From positions 118,815 through 182,814 of the forward strand of contig NZ_QUCM01000002.1 in the NCBI RefSeq assembly GCF_003473545.1: 64,000 nucleotides of DNA, given 5' to 3'. Positions within the stretch are counted from its first letter, which is position 1. Every line of letters starts with the position of its first letter. The translations under genes were made by a program, and so were the position numbers. The notes under the pieces are model-generated. The model was not told the DNA's origin. It ran no database searches and saw nothing but the letters and a program-made list of their open reading frames with translations. The stretch is from Clostridium sp. AM22-11AC. Its GTDB lineage: Bacteria; Bacillota; Clostridia; Lachnospirales; Lachnospiraceae. This document shows positions 24,981 to 33,392 of this stretch, one piece after another.

Positions 24981-25010
24981 AAAGGGGGTGTCGTGGACAT
25001 CCCCTTTTAT
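24981..25010 (+). terminator. Terminator of the TRAP operon
   Basis: AAAGGGGGTGTC at 24981-24992 pairs with GACATCCCCTTT (24996-25007) over 12 pairs with one G-U, a 3-base loop and a T-run. Confidence 0.9.
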
Positions 25011-25012
25011 GC

Positions 25013-25144
25013 TATAATGTAATGAGCACAGGGAAAAACAAGCGGCTGCGAAGCAGACATTTGTTTTTTTCAAGCCATTAACGAACGAACCGCCTGCGTC
25101 AGCAGGCAGTAGAGTGCGAATGCGCGGGGTTCGTGAGTGTATAC
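25013..25144 (+). other. Structured promoter-leader element, copy A
   Basis: This intergenic block begins with an extended -10 (TGCTATAAT, 25010-25018) and ends 23 bases before the YcxB-like gene. It contains stem P1 (AAAAACAA with TTGTTTTT around CTGC-GAA-GCAG), the conserved single strand CAAGCCATTAACGAA (25071-25085), and a three-way junction. The outer stem is ACGAACC (25085-25091) with GGTTCGT (25128-25134). P3 is GCCTGC-GTCA-GCAGGC, and P4 is GTGC-GAAT-GCGC. An inverted second copy at 33205-33330 keeps every stem, with compensatory changes. I do not recognise it as a known riboswitch. It may be a cis-regulatory RNA or a mobile promoter cassette. Confidence 0.75.
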
Positions 25145-25167
25145 GCACATTCAAGGGGGACCAATTC

Positions 25168-25653
25168 ATGTACCAATACCGTTATAAAACAACCAGAGGT
25201 GAATACTGGAAAATGTCCATGTATTTCATCTACCATTCCATGACCGGCATGGTAAACCTTGTTTTTACAGCAGCTCTTATAGCTCTTACTTGTGCAAAAT
25301 GGGAGTCTTCGGGAACCGTATTCCGCATCTGTATGGTTTTAGGCTGCTGCCTTTTTCCAATCCTTCAGCCGCTGGCTGTCTATCTCAGTGCAGGAAAACT
25401 GGCATCCGGTTCCGGGGAGGACACAGAGATCCGTCTGGATGATGTTGGGATCCAGGTAAAAGTGGGAAATACTTACGATAAGATCCCGTGGAGAAAAATG
25501 GTAAGGATCGCAAAGCTGCCGGGGATGGCCATCATTTTTACAGATCCATCCCATGGATATTTACTTACAGACCGTGTCATCGGAGAAGATAAAGCAACTT
25601 TTTATGACTGGCTGATGAAAAAGCAGTCTCAGATCCAGGTAAAGTCAAAATAA
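25168..25653 (+). CDS. YcxB-like membrane protein
   Basis: ATG 25168 follows AAGGGGG by 8 bases and gives 161 residues. The N-terminus (YQYRYKTTRGEYWKMSMYF) precedes two close membrane segments at about residues 24-45 and 51-72. A soluble C-terminal domain follows with IRLDDVGIQVKVGNTYDKIPWRKMVRIAKLPGMAIIFTDPSHGYLLTDRVIG, the pattern of YcxB-like proteins. Function is unknown. It is expressed from the structured leader element just upstream and is followed 36 bases later by a lipoprotein gene of the DctP family. Confidence 0.65.
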   Translation: MYQYRYKTTRGEYWKMSMYFIYHSMTGMVNLVFTAALIALTCAKWESSGTVFRICMVLGCCLFPILQPLAVYLSAGKLASGSGEDTEIRLDDVGIQVKVGNTYDKIPWRKMVRIAKLPGMAIIFTDPSHGYLLTDRVIGEDKATFYDWLMKKQSQIQVKSK

Positions 25654-26804: not shown

Positions 26805-27995
26805 TTAATTTAACGGAGCAATGGTAGCAGGTGCTTCCGCTGTAGATGGTTCATGTGCTGCTGCAGTAGTAGATTTCGCTGCTTCTGTGGTTGCTGCAGT
26901 AGTGGACTTGGCAGCCGCAGTGGTAGATTTCGCTGCTGCGGTAGTGGACTTAGCAGCTGCAGTGGTGGACTTCGCTGCTGCGGTAGTGGACTTAGCAGCC
27001 GCAGTAGTAGACTTAGCAGCTGCAGTGGTGGACTTGGCTGCGGTAGTAGATTTGGCAGCCGCAGTAGTGGATTTTGCAGCTGCAGTAGTAGACTTAGCTG
27101 CAGATGATGCTTTCGTCTCAGCCTTTGTTTGTGCTTTGGTACTGCTGGTGCTGGAAGATTTTGTCTCAGAAGCCTTTGTCTCGGAAGACTTAGTTTCAGA
27201 GGCTTTGGTTTCGTTCTCAGTTTCTGTTGCTGTAGTTCCGTTCGTACCATTCTTTCCGTCTGTCGGGAACTTGCTTTCCCGGTCTTCGGTATCAATTCCG
27301 GACTGGCTGAGAGAGAAGGAAGCCTGATTTGGGTTTCCTGCCATATCTTCTACATAGACAGTAAGGGAACCTTCTTCCAGTTTAAAGGTGACTTCCCCGT
27401 TTTCCTTATCGTAGCTGTCAGGAAGGATCTTGGTTCCTGCATCATCGGTAGCATAGAGGGAGTCATAATTAATGCCGGAGATACTGTCTTCTATTGTTAT
27501 GGTAAGTGTACCGTTTTCTATTACAACACTTTCTTCATCAAAGGAAGGCGGTGTATCGTCCAGTACAGCAATATGTTCGATATCCTGGGCCTGCATACCG
27601 TTCAAACTTAATACGTAGACTTCCAGAGTACCATTGTTTGTCAGGACTGCATGATAAACGCCTTTTTCTTTCTGGAATTCAATTGGCTGGGACTCCAGAG
27701 TCGTTGTCATCTTCTTTAAAGGAAGAAGAGAGTGGACCTTAAAGCTTACATCCAGCGTTTTATAATCGGTAGTATCGCTGATTGTCATTTCAATTTTCGG
27801 TGTAGCCGTGACAATAAAAAAGATCGCCAGATTGACTGCTAAAAATGGAAGTATGTAACATAGTAAAATATGTCCGAAACTGCTGCCTTTCTTTGGACTG
27901 CGGCTGCGTCTCTGACTTGGACGGGAAGCAGCAGGGCGGGTATGTTCTGAACCACGGCTGCTTCTTGGTGCGCTGTATGATGAATGGTGTTCCAT
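26805..27995 (-). CDS. Single-pass membrane protein with a KSTTAAA repeat tail
   Basis: I choose the second ATG (27995), which has AGGAGG 8 bases upstream; the first lies only 2 bases from it. The 396-residue product has a basic cytoplasmic head, one membrane segment (residues 42-62) and an outside region of about 170 residues with beta-rich Ig-like features (DDTPPSFDEESVVIENGTLTITIEDSISGI, VTFKLEEGSLTVYVEDMAGNPNQASF). A long low-complexity stalk of Lys/Thr/Ser/Glu units and eleven KSTTAAA-like repeats ends in IAPLN. There is no sortase motif. It may be a wall-spanning surface protein; its function is unknown. Confidence 0.8.
   Translation of the reverse strand: MEHHSSYSAPRSSRGSEHTRPAASRPSQRRSRSPKKGSSFGHILLCYILPFLAVNLAIFFIVTATPKIEMTISDTTDYKTLDVSFKVHSLLPLKKMTTTLESQPIEFQKEKGVYHAVLTNNGTLEVYVLSLNGMQAQDIEHIAVLDDTPPSFDEESVVIENGTLTITIEDSISGINYDSLYATDDAGTKILPDSYDKENGEVTFKLEEGSLTVYVEDMAGNPNQASFSLSQSGIDTEDRESKFPTDGKNGTNGTTATETENETKASETKSSETKASETKSSSTSSTKAQTKAETKASSAAKSTTAAAKSTTAAAKSTTAAKSTTAAAKSTTAAAKSTTAAAKSTTAAAKSTTAAAKSTTAAAKSTTAATTEAAKSTTAAAHEPSTAEAPATIAPLN
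26862..27103 (-). repeat. 21-bp tandem repeats coding for KSTTAAA
   Basis: Eleven units of 21 bp (one of 18 bp, one separated by a short insert) code for KSTTAAA. Alternate units resemble each other more closely, giving a 42-bp higher-order period. All six frames stay open here, so the overlapping ORFs on both strands are by-products. Confidence 0.92.
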
Positions 27996-28027
27996 TACCA
28001 TTTCCTCCTTTGTTAAAAACTCTCTAT

Positions 28028-32220: not shown

Positions 32221-32274
32221 AAAAACAGTATCCCGGGATCATCTAGATCAGGATGGTTCCGGGGTACTGTTTTT
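32221..32274. terminator. Bidirectional terminator between the lipoprotein and lysR genes
   Basis: AAAAACAGTATCCCGG at 32221-32236 pairs with CCGGGGTACTGTTTTT at 32259-32274, 16 pairs with one G-U, giving A and T tracts suited to both directions. Confidence 0.9.
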
Positions 32275-33178
32275 AATTTCTCTTATTATTACTATTATTA
32301 TTCAGGATCATTTTCTCCAGTTCTGCAGCAGCAATGCTGAGGGACTCATACTTTCTTTTTATCATACAGATATTTCGCTTGGGGATCGGCGGTTCCATAT
32401 TTAAAATGATCAGATTTTCCATATTTTCTTTTTCCAGAAAATCCGTTGGAACAAAACCGATCCCAAGGTCAGACTGTACCATAGGCAGGATCTGGTCAGC
32501 AGTCGCTGCTTCGATCTCCGGGGCAAAGGTACCGCCCCTTCTGTTAAAATAGTCGGAGTAAAAGGCAAAGGAACTTGTCTTTTCACCAAGACCGATGATG
32601 GGATATTTTTTGATCTGCTCGTCTGTAAGGGACGTTCCGGTAGAAAGGGAAAAAACACTGCTGCACACAGGCACTTCCTGGATACTTCTGAGAATACGGA
32701 AAGAAAATCCGGATATAAATTCAAAAGGTTCTGTTACAATGGCAAAATCTGCCAGTCCCCTTTTTAACATATCCATGGCCTGGGGAGTGGAATGGGTCAG
32801 GATCCGGATGTGGATGCCTGGATAGGTGTTGCGGAATTTTTTCAGGGTGGGAAGAAGGATACAGTGGAGGGCGATCTCGCTGGCTGCAATGGTAACGATA
32901 CCGGACTGCAGGCTTTTATCCCTGGCAATCTCTTGTTCCCCATAGGAAATATGTTCAAAAGCAACGGAAATATGGGCATACAGCTTTTCGCCCTCCGGAG
33001 TAAGTGCAATACCGTGTCTCTGGCGTACAAATAAAGTACATCCCAGCTCTTTTTCCAGTTTTTTCATGGTCCGGGTAATGTTTGGCTGACTGTTCAGCAG
33101 TGCTTCCGCAGCCCCTGTAAAGCTTTTGTATTTTGCAACATAGTAAAAGGTACGGTAATAATCGTAGCTGATGTCCAT
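32273..33178 (-). CDS. LysR-family transcriptional regulator
   Basis: The start at ATG 33178 gives 301 residues (MDISYDYYRTFYYVAKYKSFTGAAEALLNSQPNITRTMKKLEKELGCTLF), a typical LysR helix-turn-helix; the longer frame would run into the structured leader. A GGGGGAAAA site sits 8 bases upstream. The effector domain follows from about residue 90. The end NNNSNNKRN comes from a short ATT-rich tract. It is divergent from the kinase-like/MATE pair and may control it. Its transcript would begin in structured element copy B. Confidence 0.9.
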   Translation of the reverse strand: MDISYDYYRTFYYVAKYKSFTGAAEALLNSQPNITRTMKKLEKELGCTLFVRQRHGIALTPEGEKLYAHISVAFEHISYGEQEIARDKSLQSGIVTIAASEIALHCILLPTLKKFRNTYPGIHIRILTHSTPQAMDMLKRGLADFAIVTEPFEFISGFSFRILRSIQEVPVCSSVFSLSTGTSLTDEQIKKYPIIGLGEKTSSFAFYSDYFNRRGGTFAPEIEAATADQILPMVQSDLGIGFVPTDFLEKENMENLIILNMEPPIPKRNICMIKRKYESLSIAAAELEKMILNNNSNNKRN

Positions 33179-33204
33179 TTTGGTTTTCCCCCATATATAC
33201 ACTT

Positions 33205-33330
33205 GTATACTCAGGTTCCCCGCGCTGACGCGCTTTACTGCCTGCATTCGCAGGCGGAACCTTCGTTAATGGCTTGTGAAAAACAAATGCCGCCTTTGGC
33301 GGCGCTTGTTTTTCATGGCGCTCATTATAT
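33205..33330 (-). other. Structured promoter-leader element, copy B
   Basis: Read on the minus strand it begins with the extended -10 TGATATAAT and ends 27 bases before the lysR start. It shares the blocks GAAAAACAAGCG, CATTTGTTTTT, CAAGCCATTAACGAA and GCAGGCAGTA with copy A. Stems are P1 (AAAAACAA with TTGTTTTT, plus GCCGCC-AAA-GGCGGC), an outer stem AGGTTCC with GGAACCT, P3 (GCCTGC-GAAT-GCAGGC) and P4 (GCGC-GTCA-GCGC). Relative to copy A the outer stem differs at three positions, all compensated. The P3 and P4 loops (GTCA, GAAT) have changed places. Confidence 0.75.
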
Positions 33331-33363
33331 CAAAAACACATATCTAAATTACATTTTTAATAT

Positions 33364-33392
33364 TTTACATATATCTTGTTACGGATTATAAT
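33364..33392 (+). promoter_or_regulatory. Promoter of the kinase-like/MATE pair
   Basis: TTTACA at 33364-33369 and a perfect TATAAT at 33387-33392 are 17 bases apart, in the region shared with the divergent lysR gene. Confidence 0.65.

Follow-up and report, generated by a model that had tools for sequence, protein, structure and literature searches.

A dispersed, strongly covarying hairpin and three-way-junction element at promoters and leaders of unrelated genes in Clostridium sp. AM22-11AC and related genomes

The window considered here, by which we mean the whole 64-kb stretch of DNA that was analysed, contains two copies of a structured element. These are copy A (25017-25160, plus strand) and copy B (33187-33330, minus strand). 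Of the 19 inverted pairs that were listed, theirs is the longest, at 144 nt and 74% identity. Copy A precedes a YcxB-like gene (25168-25653, plus strand, ATG at 25168), whose Pfam match of 22.8 bits, obtained with the longer frame 25114-25653, lies just below the 23.3 cut-off. Copy B precedes the gene of a LysR-family regulator (32273-33178, minus strand, ATG at 33178), which was scanned as the longer frame 32273-33247. From the end of the P2 stem to the ATG we count 33 nt for copy A and 34 nt for copy B; the 23-27 bases given in the initial annotation were counted from slightly later ends. A sigma-70-like promoter (TTTACA-17-TATAAT, 11/12) at 33364-33392 on the plus strand faces a cytidylate-kinase-like gene and points away from copy B, which thus sits within a divergent promoter region. 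Elsewhere in the window, positions 26805-28001 of the minus strand hold a 398-aa frame with overlapping 21-nt repeats (26839-27122) and without a Pfam match.

The left edge of each copy is an extended -10 box, read from the sequence and the family logo, which is TGCTATAAT in copy A (25010-25018, plus strand) and TGATATAAT in copy B (33324-33332, minus strand). It is followed by a long hairpin, P1, at 25020-25080 in copy A (fold, covariance model match, and pair counts) and at 33267-33327 on the minus strand in copy B (fold and model match). P1 extends beyond its earlier description, as its outer arm TAATGAGC pairs with GCCATTA within a conserved 15-mer, and this arm spans from beside the -10 box to the CATTA of that 15-mer. 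In copy A, the inner stem of P1 is formed by an A-tract and a T-tract that include a conserved G-U pair and a C-A mismatch, and the hairpin is closed by a GAA triloop. A three-way junction comes next on the plus strand, with the 5' arm of P2 at 25085-25091 (fold and pair counts), P3 with loop GTCA at 25092-25107, P4 with loop GAAT at 25114-25125, and the 3' arm of P2 at 25128-25134, followed by a common GAG end (all three by fold). The corresponding junction of copy B (33213-33262, minus strand; fold and model match) comprises P2 at 33262-33256 with 33219-33213, P3 at 33255-33240, and P4 at 33233-33222.

The observed structure is real: the described fold is found in both copies, and the compensation between them is genuine. 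The initial annotation had reported an identical 15-base block in the two copies, together with compensated changes in the outer stem and P1 tip, and each of these is found on re-reading. The 15-mer CAAGCCATTAACGAA is exact in both copies, and only one further site in the window comes within three mismatches of it, having three. The outer stem reads ACGAACC/GGTTCGT in copy A and AGGTTCC/GGAACCT in copy B, the P1 tips differ by paired changes as had been described, a U-G pair of P4 in copy A is C-G in copy B, and the loops GTCA and GAAT are indeed swapped between P3 and P4. When folded as RNA, copies A and B give z scores of -4.85 and -6.01, and when folded as single-stranded DNA, -3.50 and -6.57; each fold was better than 200 of 200 shuffles. 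Since both kinds of fold beat the shuffles, folding energy cannot separate an RNA from a DNA level of action. A terminator scan called copy B on both strands and did not call copy A.

No family of Rfam 15 reached its gathering threshold in the window. At E values up to 10, three weak matches were seen around copy A, ending at 25004-25015, at or before the -10 box, and an Rfam scan of 20 related loci returned 10 tRNAs and a single TPP riboswitch, none of them within the element. The covariance-model search that had been proposed as a check was run with two models, R1 built from six copies and R2 from 24 copies, and it matched a dispersed family in genomes. R1 matched 25 of 150 genomes of one bacterial family at E<=1e-3, and R2 matched 31 of 397 genomes at E<=1e-8, whereas a class-wide draw yielded 2 matched genomes of 291, both already present in the family draws. 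Because scoring in the large draws covered 9 to 24 candidates for each genome, copy numbers from them are to be read as "at least". The bacterial family is that of genome G144, and we infer it to be Lachnospiraceae; among 149 genomes searched, the ClpB of the window has its best match in G144, at 76% identity. In the window itself the model matches two copies, A and B.

Using blastn, copies A and B and the copy at L004 were compared with a phage collection, and related stretches were found in six fecal scaffolds; by reading, four carry the element, one carries the junction half, and one carries another module type. From their open frames, we take these unannotated scaffolds to be bacterial DNA. 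Pattern scans with short conserved strings gave only chance matches in viral contigs and none in two other scans, and six pattern matches in genome contigs proved on reading to lack the element. Copy A had no match in plasmids or Escherichia coli genomes, and the copy at L003 had none in plasmids. Among the top entries listed in literature searches, none described the element, and the family may be among 3161 candidate RNAs from human microbiomes, which, as far as the consulted part of that report goes, are the closest resource (PMC8040213). As far as Rfam and this literature search tell, the element family is new, while its broad kind, the small dispersed structured repeat, is known. Its unusual traits are its position at a promoter edge, its sense orientation, its three-way junction, and a usage of pairs and loops unlike that of ordinary RNA.

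Covariation was assessed in two sets of copies. Set A4 comprises 24 strong copies, six of which were used to build R1; set A5 comprises 51 copies from 12 genomes that feed neither model, namely all R2 matches of at least 91 bits from genomes not feeding R2, with weaker matches excluded. In A4, 27 of 40 pairs changed on both sides and 96.9% of cells pair; the covariation test that had been called for gave a like result in the 51 copies of A5, with two-sided changes at 33 of 40 pairs and 97.3% of cells pairing. The covariation score of A5 is 0.460, as against 0.160 in shuffled and at most 0.067 in slid alignments, and two-sided changes (316 cells) far exceed one-sided changes. The models used to align both sets share this structure and thereby favour it, and the slid and shuffled controls together with the single-sequence folds guard against this in part; copies within a genome are also related, such that 22 representatives of the 75 copies are left at less than 80% identity. 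In P1, the G-U pair and the C-A mismatch are kept in 23 of 24 copies of A4 and 50 of 51 of A5, and beside them lies a mostly purine-purine mismatch (22 of 24 and 43 of 51, respectively).

One unit of the family consists of the -10 box (or an upstream stop codon), the long hairpin P1, AACGA, the P2/P3/P4 three-way junction, and GAG. Tandem, partial, and internally deleted copies and head-to-tail modules also occur, including three junction units in a row in G327, and some genomes have a simpler form in which P1 and a short P2 make up tandem arrays before a gene. Hairpin tips are enlarged as nested palindromes at L098, L221, L228, and L240. A second module type, beginning GATATAATGAGCGCAAGTGAGCGGGAACAGGC, is repeated head to tail beside the junction element, and also alone, at L018 (MT835743.1, 15745-16135) and L019 (5883-6053). 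At L005 (50-210), the junction half is preceded by a different 5' half, beginning GAGTCAACATGCTTGCATGATTGAC, and modules therefore appear to have been exchanged. Related elements with a CCGACA.../...TTGGAG or CTGGAG junction in place of AACGA/GAG were seen at L101 (2031-2156 and 2875-2993) and L072 (1501-1620), and are perhaps a sister family. Finally, we note two elements, differing in subtype from each other, placed back to back in opposite orientation at L099 (2064-2319).

The sense direction relative to the next gene, first noted for copies A and B, holds for most copies of the family. With genes called as the longest open frame, the downstream gene is sense in 44 of 49 assignable copies among the 51 of A5 (42 of 47 when the L224 tandem units are treated as one) and in 21 of 22 assignable copies among the 24 of A4. 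By gene pair, A5 has 22 sense and 2 antisense copies between same-direction genes, 20 between divergent genes, and 3 between convergent genes; convergent sites account for 3 of 47 classed pairs in A5 and 1 of 21 in A4. The genes themselves are diverse. Among 72 proteins encoded downstream of the 75 copies, a few of them doubtful short frames, only three pairs from different loci are alike, apart from a single gene that enters three times through the L224 array, and the element precedes more than 60 unlike genes. Many of these read as housekeeping genes, such as hisC, cmk, guaA, and murC. We reject a riboswitch for one ligand on this mix of downstream genes, which are nearly all different and do not show the recurring family or pathway expected with a metabolite riboswitch. 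Just 5' of the triple array of L224, a TPP riboswitch lies on the other strand (1337-1435, minus).

At the left edge, TATAAT is present in 53 of the 75 copies. A TGn comes before it in 40 of these, and 39 of the 53 carry a T at -23. A best -35 match of at least 4/6 was found in 23 copies, compared with about 7.5 in shuffles, and the position 7 nt after TATAAT, taken as the predicted start, is A in 41 of 53. Relative to this start, 35 of 53 copies, copy B among them, have the whole outer P1 arm (the 5' arm of helix 1) upstream, a count that becomes 40 of 53 if transcription starts 8 nt after TATAAT; the other 18 do not, and in copy A the arm straddles the start. Among the 22 copies that lack TATAAT, 11 start no farther than about 40 nt from where a same-direction gene ends. 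A further match to TGnTATRNT lies no more than 45 nt past the 3' end in 11 of 75 copies; shuffled flanks would give 0.34, and of 7443 other stretches 47 have the motif.

Several lines of evidence bear on whether the structure acts in RNA or DNA. In divergent contexts, which should bring no sense read-through, paired cells of helix 1 number 118 of the 124 lettered ones in 18 A5 copies and 39 of 42 in 6 A4 copies; in same-direction contexts the corresponding counts are 141 of 154 and 93 of 102. That helix 1 lies wholly 5' of the predicted start in 35 of 53 copies and is nonetheless paired in divergent contexts leans to DNA. So does the sparseness of G-U pairs, which outside the conserved pair occupy 40 of 2864 cells (17 of 838 among the 22 representatives), compared with 51 of 743 in 35 tRNAs from the loci examined; with the conserved pair included, the count is 113 of 2939 (3.8%) and the contrast with tRNA shrinks. 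G-U pairs outnumber A-C pairs 40 to 25 (p 0.08), or 17 to 10 (p 0.25) among the 22 representatives below 80% identity, an excess that leans, not significantly, to RNA or single-stranded DNA; the tRNA control shows no A-C pair, a zero that is biased because ARAGORN shows paired stems only. The loops are mostly GNA or GNNA. GNA triloops close P1 in 53 of 72 copies and P3 in 54 of 74, compared with 7 of 108 other perfect hairpins of the same loci (41 with three-base loops, either strand counted), and P4 of the representatives has GNYA and GNRA loops equally (5 and 5). In DNA, d(GNA) triloops and d(GNNA) tetraloops have an unusual stability, such that loops of this kind favour DNA hairpins, and the triloop enrichment accordingly leans to DNA. 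The consulted parts of the literature describe some short hairpins of DNA or RNA as extraordinarily stable, with GCGAAGC solved as DNA. Three traits tell against a DNA level: the copies mostly point in sense, one G-U pair is conserved, and G-U slightly outnumbers A-C. The conserved RNA or cruciform structure of the initial annotation is upheld as a conserved, covarying structure at promoters and leaders, mostly in sense; the RNA level is supported only in part, the cruciform has some support, and a riboswitch-like class is not supported.

The distribution of copies is patchy. G246 has 15 copies at E<=1e-6, and its only genus mate in the set has 2. By reading, the hisC operon carries the element in G246, where an upstream frame ends within it, and lacks it in G543 and G158, neither locus giving a model match; the gap in G543 is not plainly empty, having a TATAATG of its own and a small hairpin. 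Among 22 loci of YcxB homologues (30-47% identical), none has the element of copy A. This evidence of presence and absence comes from one operon and one gene family. Being patchy, partly tandem, and absent at the related sites checked, the element behaves like a mobile repeat. Flank repeats of at least 9 nt occur in 17 of 75 copies, tandem units among these, and no clean target-site duplication was established. Y1 transposase genes were the only mobilising enzymes sought, and none could be assigned to the element. Of the genomes tested, 8 of 12 with the element and 6 of 10 without it have such genes, no Y1 match was found in the sequences available for the element-bearing G246, G237, G210, and G172, and the best match of 29 Y1 loci to the element model was a single one at E 0.09.

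Taken together, we tentatively favour, at a little less than even chances, the reading that copies A and B belong to a dispersed, non-autonomous, MITE- or BOX-like hairpin element that folds at least partly as DNA and is kept at promoters and leaders. Many dispersed copies, with presence and absence at related sites, were found as such an element would have. It is possible that the element spreads as folded sense-strand DNA, through some enzyme or recombination, and that copies would survive where neither the ribosome-binding site nor the -10 box (or stop codon) is damaged. A copy would then serve the next gene as its 5' leader, and often as part of its promoter region, and may alter the expression of that gene. 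The sense orientation before genes speaks against this reading, as it is expected of a leader RNA and, in the part of the source consulted, absent in pneumococcal repeats (PMC3049150). Also counting against it are the 22 of 75 copies without TATAAT, the 18 of 53 in which the helix-1 arm is not wholly 5' of the predicted start, the absence of an assigned Y1 enzyme and of a clean target-site duplication, and the G543 gap with its small hairpin. A cis-acting leader RNA, the main alternative, possible though doubtful, which this orientation recalls, would use P1 as an attenuator, terminator, or RNase III site, while the junction near the ribosome-binding site would tune or sense something general and useful copies would be duplicated. 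The promoter-like left edge of 53 of 75 copies, the closeness of the 3' end to the start codon, the strong covariation, the terminator-like matches on copy B, the stacking of tandem units in front of a single gene, the conserved G-U pair, and the slight G-U excess are consistent with such an RNA. However, helix 1 wholly 5' of the predicted start in 35 of 53 copies and paired in divergent contexts too, the sparse G-U elsewhere, the even use of GNYA and GNRA in P4, the failure of the terminator scan to call copy A, and downstream genes that are nearly all unlike argue against it. We regard as unlikely the proposal that the -10 box is the foot of P1 folded in sense-strand DNA, which would make these elements structured promoters opened by supercoiling or single-stranded exposure, with modules that could be stacked head to tail as arrays before unrelated, often housekeeping genes.

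Paired changes need not reflect selection for structure. They may also arise by hairpin-templated mutation (quasipalindrome correction) in a selfish element whose stems are kept perfect by replication errors, and the large surplus of two-sided over one-sided changes and the nested-palindrome tips would agree with this. However, the C-A mismatch and the G-U pair of P1 have been left uncorrected in nearly every copy, beside a mostly purine-purine mismatch, and junction and loop sequences are conserved as well, such that we think this quite improbable as the explanation. A palindrome of the REP type, mobilised by a RAYT (Y1) transposase, would likewise be small, palindromic, intergenic, and multi-copy, and most of the element-bearing genomes tested do have some Y1 gene. 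With GTAG/CGTC close to the P1 foot in only 2 of 75 copies and close to the 3' end in 4, Y1 genes missing from four element-bearing genomes and present in most of the genomes without an element match, and none of the 29 Y1 loci matching better than E 0.09, we rejected RAYT mobilisation on both the tag and the Y1 association, and we consider it very improbable. Two unrelated leaders that are alike by chance, or a simple local duplication, might be thought of from the window, in which there are only two copies; the family-wide matches and the covariation refute this, and we give it almost no credence.

Among known systems, the BOX elements of Streptococcus pneumoniae (boxA-boxB-boxC) resemble the favoured MITE- or BOX-like element in being small, modular, structured, and dispersed, with repeated modules that can affect the next gene. 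They differ by description, since BOX elements have terminal inverted repeats and target duplications and, like RUP and SPRITE, are overrepresented between convergent genes, whereas the copies here lie mostly in sense before genes; for BOX, the shared and the differing traits follow the consulted part of the source (PMC3049150). SPRITE shares a long hairpin with a U-rich tract, terminator-like in appearance, but is a single 18-bp duplex with that tract, enriched near gene 3' ends, and no junction is described for it in the same part of that source (PMC3049150). The Correia elements of Neisseria are also dispersed repeats upstream of genes that bring promoters, according to the text available (PMC10969869), and a role as an RNase III target is mentioned for them in a passage of another (PMC3049150); we compare them by description and claim no shared motif. 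REP sequences are palindromes too, and the excerpt consulted has RAYT recognising single-stranded REP DNA (PMC3733652), but the GTAG/CGTC tag and the association with Y1 genes are lacking from the present element. Finally, the target hairpin or cruciform of DGRs offers a precedent for a DNA hairpin with a kept GRNA loop whose stem sequence may vary, as described in the portion seen (PMC3240598), but it is a single 7-10 bp hairpin beside a variable repeat.

This work adds a strongly covarying, dispersed element family that is not in Rfam 15. It also carries a warning that RNA function is not shown by covariation alone, as many outer-arm pairs lie 5' of the predicted start and still covary, and as the copies use pairs and loops differently from tRNAs and other local hairpins. 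Should the promoter reading be true, these elements would be portable promoter-leader units that bring expression signals to unrelated genes.
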